The position numbers and the translations under genes are program-made. 40,055 bases of DNA from contig JAGBXR010000013.1 in NCBI GenBank assembly GCA_017629145.1, forward strand, positions 1 to 40,055, written 5' to 3'. The notes beneath the pieces were generated by a model. The model did no database searches, was not told the origin of the DNA, and was given only the letters and a program-made list of their open reading frames with translations. Below are positions 6,595 through 40,055 of this stretch, in pieces. Positions within the stretch are counted from its first letter, which is position 1. Each line of letters begins with the position of its first letter. The stretch is from Alistipes sp. (GTDB lineage Bacteria; Bacteroidota; Bacteroidia; Bacteroidales; Rikenellaceae).

Positions 6595-6605
6595 TTGTAT
6601 CTTTG
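6577..6605 (+). promoter_or_regulatory. Promoter of the cobalamin-uptake operon
   Basis: A TTG box (6577-6579) lies 18 bp before a TATCTTTG -7 box (6598-6605). Transcription would start near 6611, just before the riboswitch aptamer. Confidence 0.8.
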
Positions 6606-6614
6606 CGCCAAGCA

Positions 6615-6790
6615 TTGGTTCTCAAGAGGCTACGCCCCGCGTGAGATTAAAAGGGAAATGGGTGTGATTCCCATACAGTTCCCGCTGCTGTGAGTTCTAA
6701 AAAAGGCTCTGCGACATCTTAATGTCACTGGTCGAAAGACTGGGAAGGCATCGCAGAGCGGAACAAGTCAGAAGACCTGCCAAGCGTTTA
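6615..6790 (+). promoter_or_regulatory. Cobalamin riboswitch
   Basis: This leader has the landmarks of the adenosylcobalamin-type aptamer in the right order. First comes AAAAGGGAAATGGGTGTGAT followed by CCCGCTGCTGTGAG. Next is TCACTGGTCGAAAGACTGGGAAGG in the P7-P8 region. Last is the B12-box variant AGTCAGAAGACCTGCC at 6766-6781. In Gram-negative bacteria such elements lower expression of uptake genes when B12 is plentiful, usually by blocking translation. Here it precedes a BtuB/BtuG locus, which supports the call. Exact ends are approximate. Confidence 0.93.
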
Positions 6791-6995
6791 TAACGAGATT
6801 ATGCCTACGGCGAATGGGCGGTCTGCGACTTGATTGTTTATCGAGTTATTGTATGATTAAAGTGGCTACCATAGGTGCACCTTGCGGTGTTGGTACGGCG
6901 TATATTGTATGCCGTAGGTGGCTCTTGTTGGGCATACTCTCGTTGTGCGAGTTACGGAGAATGACTTTTCACAAACCATTTAACAAACACAACGT
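6791..6995 (+). promoter_or_regulatory. Long leader after the riboswitch (expression platform)
   Basis: About 200 nt separate the aptamer from the first coding sequence. CCTACGGC (6804-6811) is perfectly complementary to GCCGTAGG (6911-6918), so a long-range stem is possible and may be part of the switching structure. No obvious T-tailed intrinsic terminator is seen. A 61-codon frame (6814-6999) crosses this leader but has no features of a real protein. Confidence 0.45.
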
Positions 6996-7163: not shown

Positions 7164-8888
7164 ATGAAAAAGATCATCTTTATGCTCGCTACAATCCTGA
7201 TGGTTGCAGCCTGCCAGAACAATTTCGAGGATAACTTCTCAACAATCAACAACCCAGCAGAGGAGCTTGTAATCGTCGGTTACTCATCTGCGGACAATAC
7301 ACGTACCGCATTTGGCACACCCGACTCTTCGGAGATTCCATTCTACTGGACAAAGGGCGACTACGTATGGCTCGGCACATCGAAGAGTAAGACCCTCGCG
7401 GAGGATACATCACTCGGTCACTTCTCGTTCGATGATGGTGCAGGTGTTGTAGGCACTGGCCACATCTTCTACAATATGACAGGTGAGGCGAAGACCGCTC
7501 ACGTACTTGCAGAGCAGAGTGCTGACGGCAACCTCGGCAATGATGGCGACTTCGGCTACTCGACACTCGATGAGTACAACACATTCTACCTCGAGCATAA
7601 GACTGCCTACGTATGGTTCGACACCAAGACTACGGACAGCGATATGCCCAAGCTCGAATATATACGTCTCGAGACCGAGGGTATAGCGATCGCAGGTAAG
7701 CGTAACTACAATTTCAACACACGTGAGTGGGACGACGCAACATCGGAGGGCAGTTCATCTATCATTCTCAATTTCGAGGGTGGCTACCAGCTTAAGTCAA
7801 CAAACAGCGGCATTATGGCGGCTATGGTAGTACTTCCAAGCGAGGTTAGCGGCACAAAGCTCTGTGTAACCTACGGCTTCGAGAATGGCTCGACATATAG
7901 CGAGACGAAGTTCCCATCGAAGGATTTCACAAGTGGTGCTACACAGCGCATAGCAACGACAATCAAGAAGAGCGACTTGGTACAACCCGAGCCAGAGCTT
8001 CCTTACGAGTTGCGCGTATTGACCTTCGAGGATGAGGATGCCAAGTTCACACCCTACATCCTCGACTATGCATACAGCTACGCAGGTGCTGAGATAAACA
8101 GGTGGAGCGACCTTATTGACGAGGTGCAGTACTATGGTCCATTGACCTATGGTAACGACCAGATGGATGCTATGTATTGGTGGTACGATGAGGGCAACAC
8201 CGAGCTATACCATATGTTCCCCGACAACTACGCCTATTGCTTCTGGGGTGGTGGTCACGCCATATCGAACTATTGGGGCGAGGGCTATGCTGACGAGAAT
8301 CGCAACGAGCATATCGCAAAGTTCTATGGCGAAGAGTATGTAGAGCAGTTTGCTGGCAACGATATGACCTTGGGCTGGTTCCTTGTACAGATGATGACAC
8401 CTATCAAGGCTCATTCGGGCGACAACTTCTGCATACACTATGGCTACAAGGATTTCTACTCGTATATCGAAAACCTCCCTGAGTTATCGTTTGCTGATGG
8501 CGAGGCGCGCGTTATCGACCATATGTGGGTGACCAATACGAACTACACACTGAATCAGTTGTATAACGGAGTGAAGAGCGAAGCTGGCAATAGCTTTGGT
8601 GGCAACTGGGAGGGTTTGAACGACGACGCTTGGCTCAAGATTGTAGCACAGGGCTTTGATGATGTAGAGGCCGACGCCTATGCTGAGCCCATCAGCGAGG
8701 CCGAGTTCTACTTGGTGCAGGGCGAAGAAGTTGTAACCGATTGGCAGAAGTGGGATTTGTCGTCACTTGGCAAGGTCGCAAAGGTTAGATTCAACTTCCT
8801 CTACTCCGACGATATGGGCGGTAGTTATGGTTTTACCATCCCTGGCTACTTTGCTTACGACGATATAGCGGTAAGATTTGAAAAATAA
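7164..8888 (+). CDS. BtuH-like (DUF4465) surface lipoprotein with fimbrillin-like N-terminus
   Basis: A 574-residue lipoprotein; the lipobox MVAAC places the lipidated cysteine at residue 17. Residues ~30-270 resemble fimbrillin-like (Mfa-type) domains, with TRTAFGTPDSSEIPFYWTKGD and later repeated beta strands. The C-terminal half matches DUF4465: a tryptophan- and glycine-rich region (CFWGGGHAISNYWGEGYAD), MWVTNTNYTLNQLYNG, and the ending VTDWQKWDLSSLGKV then PGYFAYDDIAVRF. DUF4465 proteins in B12 loci of Bacteroides (BtuH) bind cobalamin on the cell surface. Its place directly after a cobalamin riboswitch and before BtuG and BtuB homologues supports that role here. The fimbrillin-like extension may raise the binding domain above the surface; this is an inference. 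Confidence 0.85.
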   Translation: MKKIIFMLATILMVAACQNNFEDNFSTINNPAEELVIVGYSSADNTRTAFGTPDSSEIPFYWTKGDYVWLGTSKSKTLAEDTSLGHFSFDDGAGVVGTGHIFYNMTGEAKTAHVLAEQSADGNLGNDGDFGYSTLDEYNTFYLEHKTAYVWFDTKTTDSDMPKLEYIRLETEGIAIAGKRNYNFNTREWDDATSEGSSSIILNFEGGYQLKSTNSGIMAAMVVLPSEVSGTKLCVTYGFENGSTYSETKFPSKDFTSGATQRIATTIKKSDLVQPEPELPYELRVLTFEDEDAKFTPYILDYAYSYAGAEINRWSDLIDEVQYYGPLTYGNDQMDAMYWWYDEGNTELYHMFPDNYAYCFWGGGHAISNYWGEGYADENRNEHIAKFYGEEYVEQFAGNDMTLGWFLVQMMTPIKAHSGDNFCIHYGYKDFYSYIENLPELSFADGEARVIDHMWVTNTNYTLNQLYNGVKSEAGNSFGGNWEGLNDDAWLKIVAQGFDDVEADAYAEPISEAEFYLVQGEEVVTDWQKWDLSSLGKVAKVRFNFLYSDDMGGSYGFTIPGYFAYDDIAVRFEK

Positions 8889-8891
8889 TAT

Positions 8892-10631
8892 ATGAAAAGA
8901 GTTTTAGAATATTTGTTTTTAAGTGTGGCTTTGATCGCGTCGTCTTGTAACAGAGACGACGTGATCGTAGCCGATCCTCTTCCCGAGATTATACTTGGCG
9001 AGAGCGGTGGTGTATATAGCGTGAAGGTGGGCAACGAGGTGCGCCTTGCCCCCGATTATGAGAATGCAACGGATGCAACCTATAGCTGGAAGATTGATGG
9101 TGTAGAGGTCGGCACCGAACGCTCATACATCTTCTTAGGCGAGGAGATTGGCAGCTACTACATATCGCTTAGCGTAACTACCGCAGCGGGAAGCGACAGC
9201 GAGGAGCTTCGTGTAGATGTTATCCGTCGCGAGATTCCCACAATAGATATCGTCGGGGAATCGAAAGTCGTATTGGCTCTCGGTAGCGAAAAGAACTTTA
9301 ATAGTTCGGTTGTTGATACGTCGCTCGATGTAACCATTCGCTGGTCACTCGATGGCGAAGAGTGTGGCGAGGGCGCGAGCTACACTTTTGAGGCACAAGA
9401 GATTGGAAACTATACACTTCGCGCCACAGCCACAAATAGCGATGGCGAGGCATTCGACGAGGTGGCTATCGAGGTGCTATCTGCCGAGGATATGCCCTTT
9501 ATGTGGGATTTCGAGAAGGAGAGCTATCATACGGTGGTGGGTCGTAAGTTGCTTATAGCACCCACGCAGATAAGTGATACTGAGGATGTTGTCTATATGT
9601 GGCAGCTTGGCGACGAGGGCGAGGCTATAGAGGGTGACTCTCACTTCGTATTCACAGCAGATACAGCTGGCGAGTATCATATAACAGCCACTGCAACAGC
9701 CACACGAGAGGGCTCACCTATCTCTATCACACATAAGTTTATCGTTACGGTCTATGAGGATGGCGCGTACTATCGCGCAAAGAGTGGCACATCGAGTGCC
9801 AATTGGAGCAAAGTCTACGAATACACCCCCGCGCCAGGTCAGTTTATCAACGAGACAAAGACGGGAGGCTTCGATGGCACACAGACAACCTCAGAGGCAG
9901 CCATCGCCTATGCCGAGGCGCGTATGTCAGACGAGAATTGGGTGTCGCTTGGAGGCTTTGGCGGCTACATTATTTTAGGTTTCGACCATAGCGTTGATAA
10001 CTCTGGAGATTACGATTTTGGCATCCTCGGCAACTCGTTTAAGGGCTCGTCAGAGCCTGGTGTAGTGTGGGTTATGCAGGATGAAAATGGCAACGGAGAG
10101 CCCGACGACACGTGGTACGAGCTTGCAGGCTCTGAGACGAGCAAGGCCGAAACCATTCAAAACTATGCTGTAACCTACTACCGCCCATCGGGAGCTGGTA
10201 TGCCTGTGCAGTGGAGCGATAACCTTGGCAATAGTGGCGAGATAGACTACCTCAAGCAGTTCCATCGTCAGGAGTACTACTATCCGTTGTGGATTGAGGG
10301 CGAGAGCTATACCCTTATGGGCACCTGCCTACAAGCTCGCAACTACGACGCCTCGGGCAATGGCTCATACTGGGTGAATGATGCATACGACTGGGGCTAT
10401 GCCGATAACTACAGCCCAATCGACCGCCTCACCGAGGAGGATAATGCCGAGGGAGAGATAAATGCTAACCACTTCAAAATCTCGAATGCCATAGATTTTG
10501 AATGCAAGCCTATCCACCTCGACTATATCGACTTTGTGAAGGTGCAGGTTGCTGTTAATGCCAAGAGTGGCTGGCTCGGTGAGCTATCTACAGAGGTATG
10601 CGGAATGTTCGATTATAATATGACGAAATAG
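8892..10631 (+). CDS. PKD-domain surface lipoprotein of the B12 locus
   Basis: A 579-residue lipoprotein (lipobox LIASSC, cysteine 19). Three PKD/Ig-like domains follow at about residues 30-112, 115-197 and 203-293; each has a 'Y.W..DGE..G....Y.F...E.G.Y....T.TN..G' pattern. The C-terminal ~280 residues form a separate domain with GGYIILGFDHSVDN, DFGILGNSFKGSSEPGVVWV and DENGNGEPDDTWYELAG. This last stretch could bind calcium, judging by its Asp/Asn spacing. Proteins of this architecture are found beside BtuG and BtuB homologues in Bacteroidetes. A role in capturing corrinoids or shaping the receptor complex is likely but not shown by the sequence. It starts 3 bp after the previous stop and ends 1 bp before the next start. 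Confidence 0.82.
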   Translation: MKRVLEYLFLSVALIASSCNRDDVIVADPLPEIILGESGGVYSVKVGNEVRLAPDYENATDATYSWKIDGVEVGTERSYIFLGEEIGSYYISLSVTTAAGSDSEELRVDVIRREIPTIDIVGESKVVLALGSEKNFNSSVVDTSLDVTIRWSLDGEECGEGASYTFEAQEIGNYTLRATATNSDGEAFDEVAIEVLSAEDMPFMWDFEKESYHTVVGRKLLIAPTQISDTEDVVYMWQLGDEGEAIEGDSHFVFTADTAGEYHITATATATREGSPISITHKFIVTVYEDGAYYRAKSGTSSANWSKVYEYTPAPGQFINETKTGGFDGTQTTSEAAIAYAEARMSDENWVSLGGFGGYIILGFDHSVDNSGDYDFGILGNSFKGSSEPGVVWVMQDENGNGEPDDTWYELAGSETSKAETIQNYAVTYYRPSGAGMPVQWSDNLGNSGEIDYLKQFHRQEYYYPLWIEGESYTLMGTCLQARNYDASGNGSYWVNDAYDWGYADNYSPIDRLTEEDNAEGEINANHFKISNAIDFECKPIHLDYIDFVKVQVAVNAKSGWLGELSTEVCGMFDYNMTK

Positions 10632-10632
10632 T

Positions 10633-11703
10633 ATGGCGATAACCCTACATAGAATACTACTTATCGCTCTTATGCTCTGCACCTCAGCGTGTATGAAGTG
10701 GGAGTATGGTTTAGAAGAGGAGTTCGAGTTGAGTGGCTCGGAGCGCGGTCTTTTTATCTGCAACGAGGGTAACTTCCAGTATGGAAATGCCACGCTCTCG
10801 TACTACGACCCTGCGACGAAGATGGTGCAAAACGAGGTATTCTATAGGGCTAACGCTATGAAACTCGGCGATGTGGCTCAGTCGATGATTATCCGCGACG
10901 GCGTGGGTTGGGTCATCGTGAACAACTCACACGTGGTATTCGCCATCGACATCAACACCTTCAAGGAGTTGGGCCGCATCACAAACCTCACATCGCCACG
11001 ATATATGCACTTCATATCGGACGAGAAGGCCTACATAACGCAGATTTGGGATAATCGCATATTCATCGTAAACCCCAAACGCTACGAGATTACGGGATAT
11101 ATCGATATGCCCAATATGACTATGGAGTCGGGCTCTACGGAGCAGATGGTGCAGTATGGCAAGTATGTCTACGTAAACTGCTGGTCGTATCAGAACCGTA
11201 TCCTCAAGATAGATACCGAGACCGACAAGTTTGTCGACGAACTGGTTATCGGCATTCAGCCGACATCGCTTGTTATGGATTGCAACAACAAACTCTGGAC
11301 TGTGACAGATGGTGGCTATGAGGGCTCGCCCTACGGCCACGAAGCTCCGTCGCTCTATCGTATCGATGCCGAGACATTCACCGTCGAGCAACAGTTCAAA
11401 TTCAAGTTCGGCGACTGGCCTTCGGAGGTGCAACTCAATGGCTCGAAGGATAAGATATATTGGCTCAACGACGATGTGTGGGAGATGGACGTTACGGCAG
11501 ATCACGTCCCCGTGCGACCATTCCTCGAGTACAACGACACGCTATACTACGGCCTTACGATCGACCCCGTAAGCGGAGATGTATACATTGCCGATGCTAT
11601 AGATTACGTTCAGCAGGGTATGGTCTACCGCTACTCGAAAGATAGAGAACTCATCGATAGCTTCTATGTAGGTATCATCCCTGGAGCATTTTGTTGGAAG
11701 TAG
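10633..11703 (+). CDS. btuG: BtuG-like beta-propeller lipoprotein (DUF5074/YncE-like)
   Basis: A 356-residue lipoprotein (LCTSAC, cysteine 20) that folds, by family, as a seven-bladed propeller. Blade-type repeats are visible: GLFICNEGNFQYGNATLSYYD, VVFAIDINTFKELGRI, IFIVNPKRYEITGYID, ILKIDTETDKFVDEL, SLYRIDAETFTVEQQF and GDVYIADAIDYVQQG. The family motif CNEGNFQ.GN.TLS.YD near the mature N-terminus is typical of BtuG proteins. In Bacteroides, BtuG sits on the outer face of BtuB as a lid and binds B12 with very high affinity. Here the gene ends 11 bp before the BtuB start, so the pair is tightly coupled. The start after TAG-T-ATG at 10633 gives a complete signal peptide. Confidence 0.9.
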   Translation: MAITLHRILLIALMLCTSACMKWEYGLEEEFELSGSERGLFICNEGNFQYGNATLSYYDPATKMVQNEVFYRANAMKLGDVAQSMIIRDGVGWVIVNNSHVVFAIDINTFKELGRITNLTSPRYMHFISDEKAYITQIWDNRIFIVNPKRYEITGYIDMPNMTMESGSTEQMVQYGKYVYVNCWSYQNRILKIDTETDKFVDELVIGIQPTSLVMDCNNKLWTVTDGGYEGSPYGHEAPSLYRIDAETFTVEQQFKFKFGDWPSEVQLNGSKDKIYWLNDDVWEMDVTADHVPVRPFLEYNDTLYYGLTIDPVSGDVYIADAIDYVQQGMVYRYSKDRELIDSFYVGIIPGAFCWK

Positions 11704-11714
11704 AGTCTGGTGCT

Positions 11715-13742
11715 ATGAGAAAAACTATTGTCATACTATCGCTACTCTTTGCTGCACTTACGGCCGCAGCCCAGGAACGACGCATCGATATCGAGGGCGT
11801 TACAGTTACGGGAAACCGCCCGATAAAGGAGATTGGCGTGCAGCAAACCAAGATCGACTCGGTGTCGCTCAAGGAGAACATCGCACTATCGATGGCCGAC
11901 GTACTCACATTCAACAGCGCCATATTTGTCAAGAACTATGGTCGCGCAACACTCTCAACAGTCTCGTTCAGAGGAACATCACCATCGCATACACAGGTTA
12001 CGTGGAACGGTATGCGCATAAACAACCCGATGCTCGGTATGACCGACTTCTCGATGATCCCATCGCACTTCATCGATAACGCCACGCTGCTACACGGCAC
12101 ATCATCGGTAAACAGTACGGGTGGCGGACTGGGTGGCGCAGTGCAGCTCGCAACAGCACCATCCGAGGAGCAAGGCTTCAAGCTCCAGTATGTGCAGGGC
12201 GCAGGCTCGTTTCTCACGTTTGATGAGTATCTGCAACTGAACTATGGTCGCAACGGCTGGCAGGTTGCTACACGCGCTTCGTTCTCATCATCACCCAACG
12301 AGTATAAGTATGTCAACCGCGACAAGAAGGAGAACATCTACGACGAGGATATGAACATCGTCGACCAGTACTACCCAGAGGAGATAAATCGCAGTGGCTC
12401 GTACAAGGATCTGCACATTCTTCAGGAGGTATACTACAATAATGGCAATGGCGACCGCTTCGGACTGAATGCGTGGTATATCAACTCCAACCGCGAGCTA
12501 GCAATGCTTACAACAGACTATGCCGATGACACCGATTTCGACAACCGACAGCGCGAACACACAGTGCGTAGCGTGCTATCGTGGGATCATCTGCGTAGTA
12601 ACTGGAAGACAACCGCACGTGCAGGATATATATACACCTGGATGGCATACGACTATCAGCGAGCTGTAAGCGAGGATGTTATGGCTGTAATGTCGCGTTC
12701 GCGCAGCCAGATCAACACAATCTATGGCGAGGCGCAGGGCGAGTATAGCATAGGTCGTAAGTGGCTCTTCACCGCATCGCTTTCGGCGCACCAGCACTTC
12801 GTACTTAGCCAGGATAAGAACATCATACTCCAGGACGGAGGCAAGGGTATCGTAGGTTACGACCAAGCACGTATCGAGCTCTCTGGCTCGGTATCGGCAA
12901 AGTGGCGACCTACCGATCGATTTGGAGTCTCGGTAGTTCTGCGCGAGGAACTCTTCGGCACTACGTGGACACCGATAATCCCTGCGCTGTTCCTCGACTA
13001 CGTACTCTCGAAGAGGGGCAACGTGGTACTCAAGGCTTCGGCATCGCGCAACTATCGTTTCCCTACGCTTAACGACCTCTACTTCCTTCCGGGAGGTAAT
13101 CCCGACCTGCGCCACGAGAGTGGCTGGAGCTATGATGGCGGTATGTCGTTTGCTATAGGCCGAGAGGGGGTCTATAAGTTGAGTGGCTCGGCAACGTGGT
13201 TTGACTCCTATATTAACGATTGGATCATATGGTTGCCTACGACCAAGGGTTTCTTCTCGCCCGAGAACGTAAAGGATGTACACGCCTATGGTGTGGAGCT
13301 TGACGGCCACCTCTCGGTACAGTTGGCAAAGCACTGGTTGCTAAATATGGATGCTACATTCTCGTGGACACCATCTATCAACCACGGCGAGAAGCGTTCG
13401 CCAGCCGATCAGTCGGTGGGCAAGCAGCTGCCCTACATTCCAGAGCTCTCCTCTACTGTCGCAGGCCGCCTGACGTGGCGCGAATGGTCGTTCGTATATA
13501 ACTGGTGCTTCTACTCGGAGCGATACACTATGTCGTCGAACGATATCTCGCTCACGGGCAAGCTTCCAAAATACTATATGAGCAACATCAGCCTCGGCTA
13601 TAACCTCGCTCTGCGATGGGCCGATTTTAACTTCAAGGGCACAATCAACAACGTTTTTGATGAGGAGTACCTCTCGGTGCTTTCGCGCCCAATGCCAGGC
13701 ATCAACTTCGAGATCTTCGTCGGCATCACACCCAAGTGGTAA
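11715..13742 (+). CDS. btuB: TonB-dependent outer-membrane cobalamin receptor (BtuB-like)
   Basis: An outer-membrane barrel importing corrinoids with energy from TonB. I chose ATG 11715 because it starts a clean signal peptide (MRKTIVILSLLFAALTAAAQ); an upstream in-frame ATG at 11691 would overlap the BtuG-like gene. The mature N-terminus has IEGVTVTGNRP as a likely TonB-box region, followed by a plug domain (ALSMADVLTFNSAIFVKNYG, VSFRGTSPSHTQVTWNGMRI, NSTGGGLGGAVQL). About 22 beta strands follow, and the protein ends with the barrel-closing strand INFEIFVGITPKW. The length (675 aa) is usual. It is the last gene of the riboswitch-controlled operon; no inner-membrane ABC transporter genes are present in the window. 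Confidence 0.92.
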   Translation: MRKTIVILSLLFAALTAAAQERRIDIEGVTVTGNRPIKEIGVQQTKIDSVSLKENIALSMADVLTFNSAIFVKNYGRATLSTVSFRGTSPSHTQVTWNGMRINNPMLGMTDFSMIPSHFIDNATLLHGTSSVNSTGGGLGGAVQLATAPSEEQGFKLQYVQGAGSFLTFDEYLQLNYGRNGWQVATRASFSSSPNEYKYVNRDKKENIYDEDMNIVDQYYPEEINRSGSYKDLHILQEVYYNNGNGDRFGLNAWYINSNRELAMLTTDYADDTDFDNRQREHTVRSVLSWDHLRSNWKTTARAGYIYTWMAYDYQRAVSEDVMAVMSRSRSQINTIYGEAQGEYSIGRKWLFTASLSAHQHFVLSQDKNIILQDGGKGIVGYDQARIELSGSVSAKWRPTDRFGVSVVLREELFGTTWTPIIPALFLDYVLSKRGNVVLKASASRNYRFPTLNDLYFLPGGNPDLRHESGWSYDGGMSFAIGREGVYKLSGSATWFDSYINDWIIWLPTTKGFFSPENVKDVHAYGVELDGHLSVQLAKHWLLNMDATFSWTPSINHGEKRSPADQSVGKQLPYIPELSSTVAGRLTWREWSFVYNWCFYSERYTMSSNDISLTGKLPKYYMSNISLGYNLALRWADFNFKGTINNVFDEEYLSVLSRPMPGINFEIFVGITPKW

Positions 13743-13904: not shown

Positions 13905-13948
13905 TCTCTTAACTACCAAATCACCACTCTCCTTTAGCACCAATGCCT

Positions 13949-14080
13949 AATTTTTGGTCAGAAGGGATTAGATCTGGTCTTGGAAAGAAATTGCCCCGAA
14001 TGGGTAGTACTTGAATGTATTTCCCATTTGCTCTTTGGATTGAGAGGGCGAAGACAACACCCTTCAGGTTAGCACACTCC
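13949..14080 (+). repeat. Hairpin repeat unit 1 (degenerate)
   Basis: The left half matches the other units (AATTTTTGGTCAGAAG, then AAATTGCCCCGAATGGGTAG), but the right half after CCCATTTGCTCTTTGG has lost most complementarity. Confidence 0.75.
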
Positions 14081-14208
14081 AATTTTTCGATAGAAGTAGT
14101 TAGATGCGGCGCTGACACGAAAAAGCCACCGATGGGTAGTACTTGATGTACGTCCCATTGGTGGCGTTGACTGAAATGTCGCAGATGACTGCTTATCTCG
14201 GAAAATTC
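14081..14208 (+). repeat. Hairpin repeat unit 2
   Basis: The inner stem is GCCACCGATGGG (14125-14136) with CCCATTGGTGGC (14154-14165); the middle stem is TGCGGC (14105-14110) with GTCGCA (14178-14183). Confidence 0.88.
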
Positions 14209-14337
14209 AATTTTTCGATAGAAGTAGTTAGATGTGGCCTCGATAAAGAAATTGGCTCGGATGGGTAGTACTTGATGTACGTCCCATTGGTGGCGTTGAC
14301 TGAAGTGTCGCAGATGACTGCTTATCTCGGAAAATCC
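14209..14337 (+). repeat. Hairpin repeat unit 3 (chimeric)
   Basis: The left half is nearly the same as in unit 4, while the right half is nearly the same as in unit 2. As a result the two inner arms no longer match. Confidence 0.85.
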
Positions 14338-14466
14338 AATTTTTCGATAGAAGTAGTTAGCTGTGGCCTCGATAAAGAAATTGGCTCGGATGGATAGTAC
14401 TTGACGTACATTCCATTCGAGCCAATGATTGAGAGGTCGCAGATGACTGCTTATCTCGGAAAATTA
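14338..14466 (+). repeat. Hairpin repeat unit 4
   Basis: The inner stem is TTGGCTCGGATGGA (14381-14394) with TCCATTCGAGCCAA (14412-14425), 14 bp including one G.T pair. Confidence 0.88.
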
Positions 14467-14597
14467 AAATTTGTTGTTAGAAGGCTGTAGATGCTGCACC
14501 GATAAAGAAGTTGCCCCAGATGGGACATACTTAGCGTATTTCCCATTTGGGGCAACGATTGAGGTGCGGCAGATATCTGCCTTATCACAACAAATTA
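14467..14597 (+). repeat. Hairpin repeat unit 5 (identical copy at 39925-40055)
   Basis: The inner stem is GTTGCCCCAGATGGG (14510-14524) with CCCATTTGGGGCAAC (14542-14556). The outer stem is AATTTGTTGT with ACAACAAATT. The unit overlaps the stop codon of the peptidase gene. Confidence 0.9.
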
Positions 14598-16703
14598 CTT
14601 AAGGTTCATATTATCAATAAGAGCCTGAGTCTGTGGCTTGTGACCGCGGAAGTTCACATAAAGAGTCATAGGATGCTCGTGACCACCCTTCTCCAAAAGC
14701 TCATAACGGAACTTACCAGCAACCTCCTGGCTGAAGATACCCTCCTCCTCGAAGTAAGAGAAAGCATCAGCAGCAAGAACCTCTGCCCACTTGTAACCAT
14801 AGTAACCAGTAGCGTAACCACCACTGAATACGTGTGTGAACGCTGGGCTCATTGCCATACCGTCAACAATAGGAGTAACCTGTGTAGGAGCGATAGCCTT
14901 GAGCTCGAAGTCGCGGATGTCACCCTCGATAGGCGATGTGATTGTGTGGTAAGCCAAGTCGAGCATACCAAATGAAAGCTGGCGTACGTTGTAGTATGCT
15001 GCAAGGTAGTTCTTTGCAGCGATAATCTTCTCAACGAGCTCCGCAGGCATAGACTCACCTGTCTGGTAGTGCTTTGCCCAAAGGTCGAGATACTCCTTCT
15101 CTGTAGCCCAGAACTCCATAATCTGTGATGGAAGCTCTACGAAATCGCGCTTTACAGATGTACCGTTAATAGACTCATACTTACCGCGAGCGAGGATACC
15201 GTGCAAGCCGTGACCGAACTCGTGGAGGAATGTAGTGAACTCATCGAATGTGAGCAACGATGGAGTAGTTGCTGTAGGCTTCGTGAAGTTCATTACGAGC
15301 GAGATCAAAGGACGCTGCTCAACACCGTTTACAACCTTTGTGCCACGGAACTCAGTCATCCAAGCACCCTGGTTCTTAGACTCACGTGGGAAGAAGTCGA
15401 GGTAGAGGATAGCGAGAACCTCACCCGTGTGGTCCTTAACCTCGTATACGGTTGCCTCTGGGTGGTATACCTCGATCTCTGGAGCCTCGGTGAAAGTGAG
15501 ACCGTAGAGACGGTTAGCAAGCATAAATACTGCATCCTTTGCGCTCTCGAGCTGCAAGTAAGGCTTGATCTGCTCGTCGTTGATAGCATACTTCTCCTCC
15601 TTGTACTTCTCGCTGTAGTAAGCCCAATCCCAAGGCATAAACTTCTCGTTCATACCAAGCGACTTTGCATAAGCAGCGATAGCGTCTACGTCCTTCTTTG
15701 CGTAGCTGAAAGTAGCATCCAAAAGCTCATTGAGGAAGCCCTGAACAGTAGGAGTGCTCTCTGCCATACGGTCCTCCAATACGTAGTCTGCATAGCAGCT
15801 GTAACCGAGGAGGTTAGCAATGTTAAGACGCAACTCTGCGATGCGGCGGATGTTCTCCATATTGTCTGACTCACCACCTACGGCGCGGCTGTTGTATGCG
15901 CGGTAGAGCTGCTCCTTAAGGTCGCGCTGTGTAGAGTATGTCATAAATGGAACATAGCTTGGAGCGTGGAGTGTAAGAGTCCAGCCCTCCTGGCCACGTG
16001 CAGCAGCCTCGGCAGCCATACCCTCCTTTACGAAGTCTGGGAGCTCGGCAACCTTTGCCTCGTCTGTAATGTTGAGCGAGAAGGCGTTAGTTGCAGCCAA
16101 CGCGTTCTGACCGAAAGTCAAAGTGAGCTGTGAAAGCTCCGATGTGTACTGACGGTAGAGTTCCTTTGCCTCACCCTCGAGCAAAGCACCCGAACGCGCA
16201 AAACCCTTGTAGCTGTTCTCCAAGAGCTGACGATCCTCAACGTCGAGGTCGAGGCTCTCGCGCTGGTCGTATACAGCCTTCACACGAGCAAAAAGCTCTG
16301 GGTTGAGCGAAATGTCGTTAGAGAGCTCCGTAAGCTTTGGAGTGATGTTAAGAGCAATCTGCTGCATCTCGTCAGATGTACAGCTACCGTTAAGCACGAA
16401 GAATACACCTGTTACGCGACCAAGAAGCTGGCCTGCCTGCTCCATAGCAACGATAGTATTCTCGAAAGTTGCTGGCTCTGGATTGTTGATGATAGCCTCA
16501 ACCTCCTTACGATTAAGCTCGATAGCGTAGTCGATAGCTGGCTCGTAGTGCTCGAGCTTGATCTTTGAGAATGGAGGTGTCTGGTAAGGAGTGTTCCACT
16601 CCTCAACGAATGGGTTGCCTGCGAGTGATGCTGGAACATCGGATGTGCTGCATCCTGCAAGCGCCAAAGTCAATGCTGACATAATAACTGATAGTTTTCT
16701 CAT
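14595..16703 (-). CDS. dcp: M3-family peptidyl-dipeptidase Dcp, lipoprotein form
   Basis: A 702-residue zinc peptidase that removes C-terminal dipeptides from peptides. The catalytic motif is H494-EFGH-GLHGIL, with the third zinc ligand expected in the downstream PSQIMEFWA segment. The N-terminus is a lipoprotein signal (LALAGC, cysteine 18), so the enzyme is probably periplasmic or membrane-attached rather than cytoplasmic. The mature start NPFVEEWNTPYQTPPFSKI is typical of Dcp. The C-terminal motifs PAFTHVFSGGYATGYYGYKW and GGHEHPM are also conserved in the family. It is the second of two tandem paralogues, 66 bp after the first, and its stop codon lies at the edge of the hairpin-repeat array. 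Confidence 0.93.
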   Translation of the reverse strand: MRKLSVIMSALTLALAGCSTSDVPASLAGNPFVEEWNTPYQTPPFSKIKLEHYEPAIDYAIELNRKEVEAIINNPEPATFENTIVAMEQAGQLLGRVTGVFFVLNGSCTSDEMQQIALNITPKLTELSNDISLNPELFARVKAVYDQRESLDLDVEDRQLLENSYKGFARSGALLEGEAKELYRQYTSELSQLTLTFGQNALAATNAFSLNITDEAKVAELPDFVKEGMAAEAAARGQEGWTLTLHAPSYVPFMTYSTQRDLKEQLYRAYNSRAVGGESDNMENIRRIAELRLNIANLLGYSCYADYVLEDRMAESTPTVQGFLNELLDATFSYAKKDVDAIAAYAKSLGMNEKFMPWDWAYYSEKYKEEKYAINDEQIKPYLQLESAKDAVFMLANRLYGLTFTEAPEIEVYHPEATVYEVKDHTGEVLAILYLDFFPRESKNQGAWMTEFRGTKVVNGVEQRPLISLVMNFTKPTATTPSLLTFDEFTTFLHEFGHGLHGILARGKYESINGTSVKRDFVELPSQIMEFWATEKEYLDLWAKHYQTGESMPAELVEKIIAAKNYLAAYYNVRQLSFGMLDLAYHTITSPIEGDIRDFELKAIAPTQVTPIVDGMAMSPAFTHVFSGGYATGYYGYKWAEVLAADAFSYFEEEGIFSQEVAGKFRYELLEKGGHEHPMTLYVNFRGHKPQTQALIDNMNLK

Positions 16704-16769
16704 AAAATTTTATTATTAGGTTTTCTTCGTCAATCGCTTAATTATAAATAGGTATACCACCGAAGGTCG

Positions 16770-19001
16770 CTACTTGACCTCCTTCTTAATCATCGGACGG
16801 ATAGGACGACCAGCCTCAACAGTCTCTACCTCCTCATCCGCCTTGACTACTGCCTCTGGAAGCGCCTCAACCTCGACAACTGCCTCCGCATCACGCCACA
16901 AACCGCGCGCCTTGAGCATAGGAGTCTTGTCGGGATCTGCACCACGGAACTTGCGATACATATCCATACCTGGACGCTGACCACCCTGTGCCAAAACATC
17001 GTAGCGGAAGCTGTGTGCGAGATCCTTATCGCAGATATCGCGGCACTCGCTGAATGCTGCAAAGGCATCCTTGTCGAGCACCTCTGCCCAGAGGTAGAAG
17101 TAGTAACCCGAAGAGTAACCACCATTGAAGATGTGGGCGAAGTAGGTGTAGCGGTAGCGAGGTGCAATCTCTGGGATAAGACCGCGACGTGTTGCGAGGT
17201 TGTAGCTCTCGAAAGCATTCACGTCGATGTCGGTATCGGCCTCCAATGTATGGATATCCATATCGATAAGTGCAGCAGCGCAAAGCTCGGTTGTTGTGAA
17301 GCCCTGGTTGAAGAGCGAAGCCTTCTGGATCTTCTCGATGAGATAGTCAGGAATAACCTCGTTGGTCTTGTAGTGCGTAGCATACTCCTTCATAATCTCT
17401 GGCTCGAATGCCCAGTTCTCCATAATCTGCGATGGAAGCTCTACGAAGTCACCCTCAACCTCGGCCAACGAACGGTAACGAACATCTGCAAAGAGGAAGT
17501 GTAGAGCGTGACCGAACTCGTGGAACATAGTCTCGGCCTCGTCGAACGTAAGGAGCGAAGGTGTATCACCCACAGGAGGCGTAAAGTTGCATACGATACC
17601 TACTACTGGAGCTACACGCTCGCCATCGTCGTAGCGCTGCTCGGCGAAGTAGCCGCACCACGCACCACCGCTCTTCGACTTGCGAGGGTATGGGTCGAGA
17701 TACAATACACCGAGGTGTGACTGATCGTTGTCGAGAACCTGATATACGGTGCACTCTTTGTGATAGCGAGGAGCAGCAATTGGACGGAATGTGATGCCAT
17801 AGAGGCGGTTAGCAAGGTAGAACATACCATCGCGCACGTTGTCCAACGAGAGGTACTTGCGCACAGCCTCCTCGTCGAGCTGATACTTATCCTTACGCAC
17901 CTTCTCGGCATAGTACCACCAATCCGAGCTCTCGAAGGTCTCGCCTGGGTGATCCTTCTCGAACATAACCTTCATATCCTCCAACTCACGCTTTGCTGAC
18001 TCGAGGGCTGGTGTCCAGATCTCGTCAAGGAGTGAGTATACGGCCTTTGGATTGCCAGCCATCTGTGCATCGGTAACGTATGCCGAGTAGCTGTCGAAGC
18101 CGAGCAAGTGTGCCTTCTCAACACGCAAACGTGCCATATCCTCAATGAGAGCCTTGTTGTCATACTCGTTGTCGTTGTTGCAACGGTTCAAGTAGCCATT
18201 GTAGAGCTGACGACGAAGGTCACGATTTGAAGAGTATGTGAGGAATGGGAGCATACTTGGCTTGTCGAGTGTGAATACATAGCCATCCTTGTTAGCAGCA
18301 ACCGCTGCCTCCTTCGCCTGGTTGCGAACACCCTCTGGAAGATCCTCCACCTGTGAAGCATTGAGCTCGAGCATAAACGAGCCGTTCTCGGTGAGAAGGT
18401 TATTACCAAAGCGGATGTTGAGAGCAGTAAGCTCGGCGTTGATTGCCATAAGGCGCTCCTTGGCCTCGCCCTCGAGCAGAGCACCCGAACGAACGAAGTT
18501 GTTGTATAACTTCTCCACAAGGCGAAGCTGCACCTCGTCGAGCTGGAACTCATCGCGACGGTCATATACGCTCTTCACACGCTCGAAGAGACCGTCATTG
18601 AGCATAATGGCATTGTAGTGCTGCTCCAAACGGGGCATCATACGGTTCTGCACCTCCTGCATCTCGGCATCGAGGTCCGATGCTGAAAGCATACCGAAGA
18701 GAAGGTTGATCTCTGCAAGCTTGATACCTGCACGATCCAAAGCAAGAATTACGTTGTCGAAGGTAGGCTCCTCCGTAGAGTTTACGATGGCCTCAATCTC
18801 CGCATTGTGCATCTGCATAGCAGCCTCGAAAGCTGGCTCGTAGTGCTTGGTGCAAATTTGGTCGAAAGGAGGAATACCGAACTCGGTGTTCCACTCCTCA
18901 AGCAAAGGATTGCCCATAGAGACAACCTCCTCGCTTGTGCAAGAAGAAAGATTCAAGGTCATAGCAAACATTAATGACGATAATAGTAAAAGTCGTTTCA
19001 T
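16770..19001 (-). CDS. dcp: M3-family peptidyl-dipeptidase Dcp paralogue, lipoprotein form
   Basis: A 743-residue paralogue of the next gene, with the zinc motif H494-EFGH-ALHFLF at the same residue number. I chose ATG 19001 because it starts the lipoprotein signal MKRLLLLSSLMFAMTLNLSSC; the longer frame would run across the promoter and the start of rsmE. The family features NPLLEEWNTEFGIPPFDQI, ELPSQIMENWAFEP and YFAHIFNGGYSSGYYFYLWAE are present. A C-terminal tail of about 40 residues (rich in Glu, Val and Ala, ending IRPMIKKEVK) goes beyond the usual family end. The two enzymes probably work together on peptide use in the envelope. Its promoter overlaps that of rsmE. Confidence 0.92.
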   Translation of the reverse strand: MKRLLLLSSLMFAMTLNLSSCTSEEVVSMGNPLLEEWNTEFGIPPFDQICTKHYEPAFEAAMQMHNAEIEAIVNSTEEPTFDNVILALDRAGIKLAEINLLFGMLSASDLDAEMQEVQNRMMPRLEQHYNAIMLNDGLFERVKSVYDRRDEFQLDEVQLRLVEKLYNNFVRSGALLEGEAKERLMAINAELTALNIRFGNNLLTENGSFMLELNASQVEDLPEGVRNQAKEAAVAANKDGYVFTLDKPSMLPFLTYSSNRDLRRQLYNGYLNRCNNDNEYDNKALIEDMARLRVEKAHLLGFDSYSAYVTDAQMAGNPKAVYSLLDEIWTPALESAKRELEDMKVMFEKDHPGETFESSDWWYYAEKVRKDKYQLDEEAVRKYLSLDNVRDGMFYLANRLYGITFRPIAAPRYHKECTVYQVLDNDQSHLGVLYLDPYPRKSKSGGAWCGYFAEQRYDDGERVAPVVGIVCNFTPPVGDTPSLLTFDEAETMFHEFGHALHFLFADVRYRSLAEVEGDFVELPSQIMENWAFEPEIMKEYATHYKTNEVIPDYLIEKIQKASLFNQGFTTTELCAAALIDMDIHTLEADTDIDVNAFESYNLATRRGLIPEIAPRYRYTYFAHIFNGGYSSGYYFYLWAEVLDKDAFAAFSECRDICDKDLAHSFRYDVLAQGGQRPGMDMYRKFRGADPDKTPMLKARGLWRDAEAVVEVEALPEAVVKADEEVETVEAGRPIRPMIKKEVK

Positions 19002-19018
19002 CTCTCGTATTATTTTAT

Positions 19019-19057
19019 TAACTTTGCGCAAAGTTAAAAAATTATTGAGTAATGCAA
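19019..19057. promoter_or_regulatory. Overlapping divergent promoters on an 18-bp perfect palindrome
   Basis: TAACTTTGCGCAAAGTTA (19019-19036) is a perfect palindrome, so both strands carry a TAACTTTG -7 box. On the minus strand, TTG at 19057-19055 lies 18 bp upstream, which gives a full promoter for the peptidase gene. On the plus strand no TTG box is seen, but the box lies 26 bp before the rsmE start. Confidence 0.75.
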
Positions 19058-19762
19058 CTATTTTATGCACCGGAAATTTCATTTCCGCGACATACTCTTT
19101 CAGAGGAGGAGTCAAAACACTGCACAAAAGTGCTACGTATGCGCTGCGGCGAAGAGCTATTTTTGACCGATGGTCAAGGCACTATGCACCGATGTAAGAT
19201 AGTGAGTGACAACGCAAAACACTGCGAAGTAGAGATTGTAGAGAGCACCCCCGAATACGAGAAACTACCATACAATCTTTCGATGGCCGTAGCCCCAACA
19301 AAAAATATCGACCGATACGAGTGGTTTTTGGAAAAAGCTACCGAAGTGGGCGTTTTCGAGTTCATACCTATCGAGTGCGACCATAGCGAGCGTCGACAGA
19401 TAAAACCCGAACGCGAGGAGAAGGTGATTACCGCAGCGGTAAAACAGTCGCTCAAAGCCTACCACCCTACACTCCATCCGTTGACCCCACTGCGCAAGCT
19501 TATCACACAGCCGTTTAATGGTCAAAAATTCATAGCGCACTGCAACGATGAGCTCGGCGAGCGTCTATATTTGGGAAATCTTATAGAAAAAGGCGAGAAT
19601 GTGCTAATTTTAATTGGTCCAGAGGGTGATTTTTCGAAGGAAGAGATTACCTTTGCACTCCAAAATGGCTTTCGAGCTATCAGCCTCGGCAAACAGCGCC
19701 TCCGCACCGAAACCGCAGCGGTGGTTGCAACCGTGCTGACATCGACAGTCAACTCATTGTAA
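19052..19762 (+). CDS. rsmE: 16S rRNA (uracil1498-N3)-methyltransferase RsmE
   Basis: A 236-residue SPOUT-class methyltransferase that modifies U1498 in 16S rRNA using S-adenosylmethionine. The N-terminal PUA-like domain (to about residue 70) has the family pattern HTLSEEESKHCTKVLRMRCGEELFLTDGQG. The SPOUT domain follows, with APTKNIDRYEWFLEKATEVGV, the knot segment LILIGPEGDFSKEEI and SLGKQRLRTETAAV. The length is normal. It is divergent from the Dcp-type gene, and the hydrogenase-like operon begins 42 bp after its stop, so read-through into that operon is likely. Confidence 0.96.
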   Translation: MQLFYAPEISFPRHTLSEEESKHCTKVLRMRCGEELFLTDGQGTMHRCKIVSDNAKHCEVEIVESTPEYEKLPYNLSMAVAPTKNIDRYEWFLEKATEVGVFEFIPIECDHSERRQIKPEREEKVITAAVKQSLKAYHPTLHPLTPLRKLITQPFNGQKFIAHCNDELGERLYLGNLIEKGENVLILIGPEGDFSKEEITFALQNGFRAISLGKQRLRTETAAVVATVLTSTVNSL

Positions 19763-30474: not shown

Positions 30475-31137
30475 TTATTTGTAGGAGTGGTGACGAGCTG
30501 TATTCTTTCCGCCACCCTTCTGCTGCTTGCCGCGCTGCTGCTTGCCGCGCTGCTGCTTACCGCGCTGCACTGGCGACTGACGATACTCACTACGCATACC
30601 GCTGATAGCTGCTACGTTGATATCGATTTCGCCATCGGCCATAATGCGTATGTCTCGGATGATAGAGTCGTTATTGGGATGCTCGTTGTTGAACTCGAAA
30701 CTCTTGGCACGCATATAACGCGCTACATCGACAACCTGGGCACCTGCGTGACCATTACGCTGCTCGGCTGCGATGTGACGCACGAAATTCTGAGTATACT
30801 TACCATAGTGCTTAAAGACGATGCGCGACTGCGGATAGTTCATCTTTTGGGGGCGAATCATCAAATCGTGGCGTGATGGTTGTGAGTAAGGCGAGTCGAC
30901 ATCAAGTCTGAAATCCGACATTATGAAGAGGTGATCCCAGAGCTTGTGTTTGAACTCGTCGGTATCGCGAAGCATAGTGTTAAGGTTGCCCATAACAGCA
31001 ATCACCGCCTTGGCCTGACGCGTACGCTCAACACGATCTTCGATCTCGAGCAGAGCATCGACCATCTCGTGGATGTGACGTCCATACTCGGGGAGGTAGA
31101 GCTTGCGTCGCGTATGGTTATAATTTTTTTTCATCAT
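30475..31137 (-). CDS. DUF4290 family protein with RGKQQ repeat tail
   Basis: A 220-residue protein without signal peptide or membrane helix. The start at 31137 (MMKKNYNHTRRKLYLPEYGR) matches the usual N-terminus of this Bacteroidetes family. The body includes MGNLNTMLRDTDEFKHKLWDHLFIMSDFRLDVDSPY, which is strongly conserved in DUF4290; the function is unknown. The last ~30 residues are basic and low-complexity, with three RGKQQ repeats followed by KGGGKNTARHH, and could bind nucleic acid. It is the first gene of the minus-strand operon that leads to lpxH and thyA. Confidence 0.88.
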   Translation of the reverse strand: MMKKNYNHTRRKLYLPEYGRHIHEMVDALLEIEDRVERTRQAKAVIAVMGNLNTMLRDTDEFKHKLWDHLFIMSDFRLDVDSPYSQPSRHDLMIRPQKMNYPQSRIVFKHYGKYTQNFVRHIAAEQRNGHAGAQVVDVARYMRAKSFEFNNEHPNNDSIIRDIRIMADGEIDINVAAISGMRSEYRQSPVQRGKQQRGKQQRGKQQKGGGKNTARHHSYK

Positions 31138-34551: not shown

Positions 34552-34561
34552 TCTCAAATCG

Positions 34562-34636
34562 TCGGGATACCAGGATTCGAACCTGGGACCCCCTGCTCCC
34601 AAAGCAGGTGCGCTAACCGGACTGCGCTACATCCCG
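34562..34636 (-). tRNA. tRNA-Pro (anticodon UGG)
   Basis: A full cloverleaf reads on the minus strand. The acceptor is CGGGATG with TATCCCG, the anticodon stem CCTGC/GCAGG encloses TTTGGGA with anticodon TGG, and the T-arm has GGTTCGAATCC. The discriminator is A and no CCA is encoded. The length is 75 nt. Confidence 0.97.
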
Positions 34637-39588: not shown

Positions 39589-39796
39589 ATAGGTAGAAGA
39601 GATTTTTGAGGAAGCTGCGCGCCTTTAGATAGGGCATAAGGAATTTAAGGAAATTAGTGAATTTAGGGAGAGCTTGCGCGCCTTTGGAACGCACTCTGCT
39701 CCTTAACACCCCTATATTCATTAATTTCCTTAAACTCATTAAATTCATTAATCTACCTAATTTCCTTAATTCACCACCTACCCACCTGCACACCCT
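39589..39796. repeat. AT-rich inverted-repeat region leading the second hairpin array
   Basis: GAATTTAAGGAAATTAGTGA (39641-39660, continuing to 39664) is nearly complementary to 39733-39772, which ends TAATTTCCTTAATTC. Within the left part, TGCGCGCCTTT occurs twice (about 39616 and 39676). Related GGGAATTTAAGG sequences precede the first array. No gene is seen here. Confidence 0.65.
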
Positions 39797-40055
39797 AATT
39801 TTTCGATAGAAGTAGTGAGATGCGGCACTGACACGAAAAAGCCACCGATGGGTAGTACTTGATGTACGTCCCATTGGTGGCGTTGACTGAAGTGCCGCAG
39901 ATTGCTGCTTATCTCGAAAAATTAAAATTTGTTGTTAGAAGGCTGTAGATGCTGCACCGATAAAGAAGTTGCCCCAGATGGGACATACTTAGCGTATTTC
40001 CCATTTGGGGCAACGATTGAGGTGCGGCAGATATCTGCCTTATCACAACAAATTA
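39797..40055. repeat. Second hairpin-repeat array (two units, cut by the window end)
   Basis: Unit A (39797-39924) is close to unit 2 of the first array, with inner arms GCCACCGATGGG and CCCATTGGTGGC. Unit B (39925-40055) is identical to unit 5 (14467-14597) over all 131 bp. The array may continue beyond the window. Confidence 0.9.

Follow-up and report, generated by a model that had tools for sequence, protein, structure and literature searches.

Sites of the attC type vary in sequence while keeping their structure, and they are placed after a gene. The folded bottom strand of attC is the one used, and in sedentary integrons the sites are placed on a given strand relative to replication (PMC11023631). 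REPs are palindromic sequences of 20-40 bp with G-T pairs in their stems that are present in high copy number, mostly downstream of genes and between tandem or convergent genes, and the ends of the GTAG REPs often give neighbouring genes a stop codon (PMC3733652). ERIC (RU-1, 127 bp) and YPAL (RU-2, 168 bp) are longer intergenic repeats; ERIC forms one long stem-loop, and movement by a transposase is only hypothesised (PMC2229807, PMC2267715). BrickBuilt, a MITE of Porphyromonas gingivalis, is intergenic and has long predicted stem-loops, 23-nt repeat units and ends like those of IS5-family ISPg elements; PMC4596501 reports no Rfam match for it and an intact natural terminator in the case described.

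The window, meaning the whole contig of 40,055 bases that was analysed (G000:C7), contains two tandem arrays of imperfect palindromes of approximately 129 bp, located at 13949-14597 (units U1 to U5) and 39797-40055 (V1 and V2). Tandem Repeats Finder independently detected the array with a period of 129, so the units are indeed far longer than the 20-40 bp of REP/BIME elements, as had been remarked at the outset. Unit limits were taken from a covariance model of 129 positions, R1, which was built from 15 oriented units of this genome and of G011, G017, G021, G022, G025 and G035, and folding was expressed as z-scores of RNA folding against 200 dinucleotide shuffles. All units lie on the plus strand. 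The hairpin units of the first array are U2 (14081-14208, 128 bp; 125.7 bits, z -9.1), U3 (14209-14337; 117.1 bits, z -4.7), whose inner arms are less well matched to each other, U4 (14338-14466, 129 bp; 146.0 bits, z -12.9) and U5 (14468-14597; 130.9 bits, z -11.2), and those of the second are V1 (39797-39924; 132.3 bits, z -11.8) and V2 (39926-40055; 130.9 bits, z -11.2). U5 and V2 are identical over 131 bases, though they are 25 kb apart. The original prediction of five plus two nearly self-complementary units was borne out for these six, which fold far beyond chance, but U1 (13949-14071; 38.2 bits) is degenerate and, with a z-score of only -0.5 over 13948-14079, is a remnant.

The first array begins 206 bp past the end of a convergent gene for a TonB-plug protein (11691-13742, plus strand; PF07715), and at its other side the terminal TTA of U5 is the TAA stop codon of an M3 peptidase gene on the minus strand (14595-16703; PF01432, E 2.3e-126), the distance from unit to ORF being -3. 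This is the placement first described for the array, touching the stop codon of one gene and following the end of the convergent one, and the accompanying statement that no mobility gene is present also held for the ten window ORFs searched against Pfam. The M3 peptidase gene is one of a tandem pair (14595-19127), and the element is found only at the copy nearer the array. Since the second array reaches the end of the contig, the gene to the right of V1 and V2 is out of sight. To its left lies an accompanying module with approximate limits of 39605 to 39796, consisting of a conserved 19-base tag beside V1 followed, as judged by eye, by a purine-rich/pyrimidine-rich inverted repeat. A scan of 176 copies detected the tag next to 11, every one of which belongs to this genome. 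At these copies (V1 and 10 more) the G-rich conserved tag lies beyond the hairpin and is followed by purine- and pyrimidine-rich repeats of variable length, in which a second long hairpin is possible.

Copy number was estimated by the BLASTN comparison of one unit that had been proposed, with position and orientation scored in addition; U4 gave 61 matches in its own genome (G000; 1.62 Mb in 49 contigs). R1 gave at least 136 rows in this genome with 150 of 691 candidates scored, many places being counted twice, once per strand, as a unit so close to a palindrome matches in either direction, and at least 133 and 148 rows in the related genomes G003 and G017. R1 searches score a limited number of candidates per genome; the numbers are therefore minimum values, and the absence of a match carries little weight. 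On this basis R1 matched 14 of 25 genomes of the genus and 0 of 16 from other families. Matches by blastn were obtained in 12 of 61 genomes, all within the genus, and three of the 12 lay outside the 41-genome sample used for R1. A pattern of 19 fixed letters was found in 110 stretches of a species-genome collection; among the 80 matches listed, 79 came from 'Alistipes sp.' or Rikenellaceae MAGs, many of which name ruminants in their titles. The single Latescibacterota match (L221) was not confirmed by the covariance model. Several contigs of the window's own genome start or stop within a copy, which accounts for some of the contig breaks in these gut MAGs.

In an alignment of 70 distinct oriented copies, standard pairs occupied 97.7% of 3125 cells, and 33 of the 45 pairs had changed on both sides. 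Cells changed on both sides numbered 501, against 137 (sd 9.5) in shuffles and 22-63 in slid controls; this alignment was fitted to the model and favours the structure, but in an unfitted alignment of 15 sequences, two-sided changes were already present in 23 of 45 pairs. The terminal inverted repeats form an outer 10-bp helix and the model structure includes an outer 3x3 internal loop. A mismatch pair, G-A then A-G, was kept in 63 and 51 of the 70 copies respectively, and the apical TAC..GTA was kept in three pairs in all 70. The stems are highly variable even inside one genome, and would be drifting through paired changes while the tandem G-A/A-G mismatch and the apex are retained. By eye, the same two-unit order was found again at separate loci, which, together with the identity of U5 and V2, speaks for amplification.

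The position of the repeat relative to genes was read from the contigs for 79 arrays, in a count that turned only three mis-stranded copies (those differing by >5 kcal/mol, all from mixed pairs). The right end of the array meets the stop codon of an opposite-strand gene within 14 bp in 65 of these arrays, the left end does so in 0 of 79, and no stop codon is met at the right end in 14. A gene on the opposite strand lies at the right end in 67 arrays, a number that was 65 before the copies were turned. The predicted location at gene 3' ends therefore stood, with the refinement that the repeat is not merely in 3' regions, one given end being the one that meets the stop codon. At the level of single copies, an ORF of at least 100 aa ends between -75 and +12 of the element start in 117 of 176 distinct copies, with the stop codon at -3 to 0 in 87 of the 117; the remaining 59 copies include many inner array units. 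In nine copies the frame stays open as far as a TGA at +10, within the element. Seven of the 176 copies had been turned by folding energy. As judged by eye, at least some of these turns are wrong; they concern a subfamily whose inner arm is symmetric, and the effect can only be an underestimate of the copies that meet a stop codon.

The stop codons of element genes were TAA in 12 of 12 cases in G000 and 16 of 16 in G017, while other genes used TAA in 94 of 168 and 138 of 232 cases, and this uniformity suggests that the element supplies the end of the stop codon in these two genomes. In G003 the element-gene stops were mixed (13 TAA, nine TAG and five TGA). TA is frequent on the gene side, where it is part of the stop codon, and no constant TA was found on the far side, so no consistent target duplication is seen. 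One copy (L123:2466-2594) overlaps a minus-strand tRNA-Arg gene (2592-2664) by three bases at the 3' end of that gene, in the same geometry, and the target is thus better called a gene end than a translation stop. Arrays are kilobases apart, and the abutting genes examined, including those of the densest cluster seen (G003:C40, 315-321 kb), are housekeeping genes; from their proteins, we take the element-bearing core genes to include those for aldolase, GAPDH, IF-3, ribosome recycling factor and EF-G.

We estimate the chance at roughly one in two that this is a new high-copy, non-autonomous palindromic repeat, similar in kind to REP, ERIC and MITE elements, that has spread to the 3' ends of ordinary operons within one Rikenellaceae lineage. 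A copy would typically join within the stop codon, between TA and A or, in one subfamily, between TA and G, with one particular end facing the gene. The gene's own intrinsic terminator would then mostly be absent, not displaced, and the element may form the end of the transcription unit. Copy number, structure, covariation, orientation, the stop-codon junction and the scarcity of terminators are observations; mobility, a single-stranded intermediate and a takeover of the transcript-end role are inferred.

Terminator-like sites were called by a simple scan, with a greedy ORF caller; 7 of 64 element genes had such a site in their 3' intergenic region, as against 89 of 236 others. Within 280 nt the numbers were 4 of 64 and 86 of 222. 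Within 90 nt, a GC-rich hairpin with a T tract on the sense strand was found by the scan in 1 of 64 element genes and a terminator-like site in 73 of 222 others, a comparison that is partly trivial since the element occupies that stretch; the fair test is the intergenic one, and the scarcity seen there is in line with the 3'-end element first proposed. Fifteen orthologue pairs have the element at just one of the two genes; among them, no element gene has a site within 90 nt, and seven of the element-free partners do (6 of 14 when distinct). Simple insertion would leave the old terminator further downstream, where it is mostly absent. Across 159 orthologue pairs, both partners carried the element in seven (1.8 expected), one partner in 20 and neither in 132, and this non-random choice of genes could mean conserved function instead of mobility. 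At the sites common to both species that were examined, the element sequence differs by species.

The same counts bear on a second explanation, to which we give clearly less weight, namely that the repeat is a true 3'-end RNA element whose hairpin, lying in the mRNA directly after the stop codon, terminates transcription or protects the 3' end, the canonical terminators having decayed and the spread having occurred by recombination, not transposition. The scarcity of terminator-like sites, the placement after core genes and one tRNA and the excess of shared orthologues all speak for such an element, and the sense strand folds well, with a mean MFE of -47 to -57 kcal/mol; however, no U-tract follows the element in the copies examined, and the sense strand is the poorer folder of the two.

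When the strands were folded separately, the strand antisense to the abutting gene out-folded its complement in 95 of 101 copies. In three sets of copies the antisense strand had on average 4.2-4.6 G-U pairs, compared with 0.65-1.0 on the complement, and helix cells held G-T 277 times and A-C, its counterpart on the other strand, 17 times; these helices were picked with G-U allowed, a bias from which the separate folding is free. A simple mRNA-stability hairpin is disfavoured by this result because the best-folding strand is antisense to the gene. Nor is the better-folding strand transcribed from the left neighbour gene in 45 of 79 arrays. Promoter-like sites within 150 bp were no commoner than background, being seen at 5 of 79 arrays, against a background of 5.9% and 51 of 83 in the positive control. 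This led us to reject a promoter of the repeat's own for an antisense RNA, and it counts against the antisense-RNA version of the 3'-end element. Taken together, the direction of these left neighbours and the background level of promoter-like sites suggest single-stranded DNA, or RNA from rare source copies only. In the colonising-repeat reading, what is recognised for copying would thus most likely be the folded antisense-to-gene strand in one of these two forms. Of the roles put forward in the original prediction, that is, termination or RNA stability at 3' ends or action as single-stranded DNA, the description as a structured, extragenic, dispersed element at gene 3' ends was upheld, the simple stability hairpin was not, and single-stranded DNA remains alive.

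A better-folding antisense (bottom) strand, a site after the stop codon and tandem units are also what an attC-like recombination site would have, at which a specialised recombinase would recognise the folded bottom strand and transfer DNA from one site to another. We consider this unlikely, since the sites are dispersed behind housekeeping genes, not cassettes. The tyrosine recombinase profile PF00589 gave two matches in the window's own genome and at least one in each of 41 genus genomes, with or without the element, and these enzymes are thus uninformative. The idea of a cassette array was dropped, as the densest cluster consists of housekeeping genes.

The arrays are oriented alike over whole contigs. 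On 18 contigs with at least three arrays, 98 of 107 arrays among the matches listed share the majority orientation of their contig, whereas shuffling gave a mean agreement of 70.4 and a maximum of 84 in 20,000. On G003:C40 all 37 copies point in the same direction, and the element genes there are distributed 24:1 between the strands, compared with 39:52 for the other genes (p 6e-7). The corresponding counts on G017:C6 were 14:5 and 18:32 (p 0.007); on G000:C34, G000:C15 and G003:C3 the strand counts were no different from those of other genes (p 0.72, 0.26 and 0.20). The direction of the element tends to track GC skew, being one way on the contig whose skew is negative in 16 of 20 intervals and mostly the opposite way where the skew is mainly positive; the 40-kb window itself has mixed skew. 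A tendency of orientation to go with replication is read from GC skew only, and this skew is weak. The structured strand tends to be the C-rich strand, the inferred leading-strand template, as PMC11023631 reports for attC sites of sedentary integrons, and to this extent the attC-like explanation gains. Near-uniform orientation that tends to follow skew would also suit a polar DNA mark for replication or segregation, similar to KOPS or Chi but large; such a mark is very improbable, given that 11 of 25 genus genomes have no match, that the stems are very variable and that the repeat is tied to gene ends.

No known family and no mobility enzyme among those tested accounts for the repeat. A search for a linked mobility enzyme had been suggested as a check, and no transposase is linked. 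The Y1 transposase profile of IS200/IS605-like and RAYT proteins (PF01797) had no match in 41 genus genomes at E 0.001, compared with matches in 5 of 14 control genomes, and a RAYT/IS200 mover is therefore rejected for the sampled genus. Reverse transcriptase (PF00078, RVT_1) was absent from the window's own genome, which is 76% complete, and from 9 of 13 other element-positive genomes, most of them incomplete. With 10 of 14 element-positive genomes lacking a match, though most are incomplete, reverse transcriptase was set aside as the mover, and we give very little weight to a retroelement-like origin, in which target-primed reverse transcription at the stop codon would write an RNA into the gene strand, even though one strand is G-U rich, the gene-side end is exact in many copies and the far side varies, the 11 copies examined having a module rich in repeats there. 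Rfam gave no match over the array at the gathering score or up to E 5, so the match to an Rfam family that would have spoken against a new family was looked for and not found. No description of the repeat was found in the open-access literature searched; the earlier impression that no described family has this form holds within these two sources. With one genome compared per species, neither a transposition event nor a clean empty site was seen. Blastn against 50,697 phage and 72,556 plasmid records gave no match, and spread by either was rejected; a single pattern match in IMG/VR was not confirmed by the covariance model.

Set against the described systems, the family recalls REP and ERIC repeats in how abundant it is and where it lies, and attC in its architecture and polarity, but for none of them are the defining features fully in evidence. 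Paired changes, a stop-codon junction at the right end, antisense folding, contig-wide orientation and scarcity of terminators are new here. The repeat shares abundance, palindromy, a position downstream of genes and G-T stems with the GTAG and CGTC REP/BIME elements, and stop-codon supply with the GTAG REPs (PMC3733652). It differs from them in its length of about 129 bp, its several internal loops, its junction with the stop codon in most arrays, its single orientation to the gene and the lack of a Y1 transposase in the genus sample. With regard to the GTAG/CGTC end tag, pairing in the consensus extends as far as the penultimate letter, and CGTC occurs in the outer arm of many G003 copies. 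ERIC and YPAL are alike in length class, intergenic location and MITE-like palindromic form (PMC2229807 and PMC2267715). Unlike these enterobacterial repeats, which were compared by description only, the present one is from another phylum and has tandem arrays, paired changes, a stop-codon junction, contig-wide orientation and scarce terminators. Porphyromonas gingivalis belongs to the same order as the hosts of the repeat. BrickBuilt is likewise intergenic, with stem-loops and no Rfam match, but it has 23-nt building blocks, ISPg-like ends and, in the case described, an intact terminator (PMC4596501). The likeness to attC lies in the better-folding bottom strand and in its placement relative to replication (PMC11023631), and the differences are dispersal over contigs after housekeeping genes, no cassette array and no integrase in evidence.

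A terminator is usually regarded as a constant component of its gene. In this lineage, many gene ends appear to have passed to a repeat family, which usually joins within the stop codon and with fixed polarity. Should an enzyme make the junction, gene ends would have to be recognised at the level of DNA, and such recognition would, to our knowledge, be new; should selection account for it, the family would amount to a natural experiment in terminator replacement. A bolder form of the first case, which we put forward only tentatively, is that these are DNA sites of a new class. Their folded antisense strand would be read as single-stranded DNA by a putative enzyme that targets gene ends (mostly stop codons, once a tRNA end), swaps the terminator for the element and so rewrites operon ends genome-wide.

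Outside Rikenellaceae, two further loci were found. An order-wide R1 scan, with only 23 candidates scored per genome, matched 2 of 149 genomes, the window's own genome being one of them, and a two-arm pattern (gap 66-96) matched 3 of 393 genomes of the order, with 16 matches in the window's own genome and none for the backward control. The matches outside Rikenellaceae, G182 and G639, are from two different families of the order and have a single locus each. The G182 copy overlaps the stop codon of the abutting gene, presumably dnaJ-like from its protein letters, and in G639 the stop codon of the abutting gene, which we take in the same way to be transporter-like, lies within the element arm. 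At both loci the element is antisense to the gene and the antisense strand is the better folder (-66.0 against -44.8 kcal/mol in G182, -54.2 against -39.1 kcal/mol in G639). The two loci repeat the three features, though two loci cannot prove a rule; related loci with this arrangement occur in three families of one order.

Some further observations were made by eye or in passing. A tandem hairpin-like repeat with units of about 120 bp, a similar apex and different stems lies at approximately 167,283-167,700 of G000:C34 (L159), after a gene that we assume to be fumarate-hydratase-like, and is possibly a distant subfamily. In the element flanks on G003 contigs, a second short palindrome-like sequence was noted around GCTAATGG...CCATTGGC. 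Elsewhere in the window, a cobalamin riboswitch (6599-6798; 98 bits) is located upstream of the genes at 7164-13742, one of which encodes the TonB-plug protein. A 15-bp tandem repeat of 3.3 copies is present at 30520-30568, and a tRNA-Pro(TGG) gene lies on the minus strand at 34561-34636.
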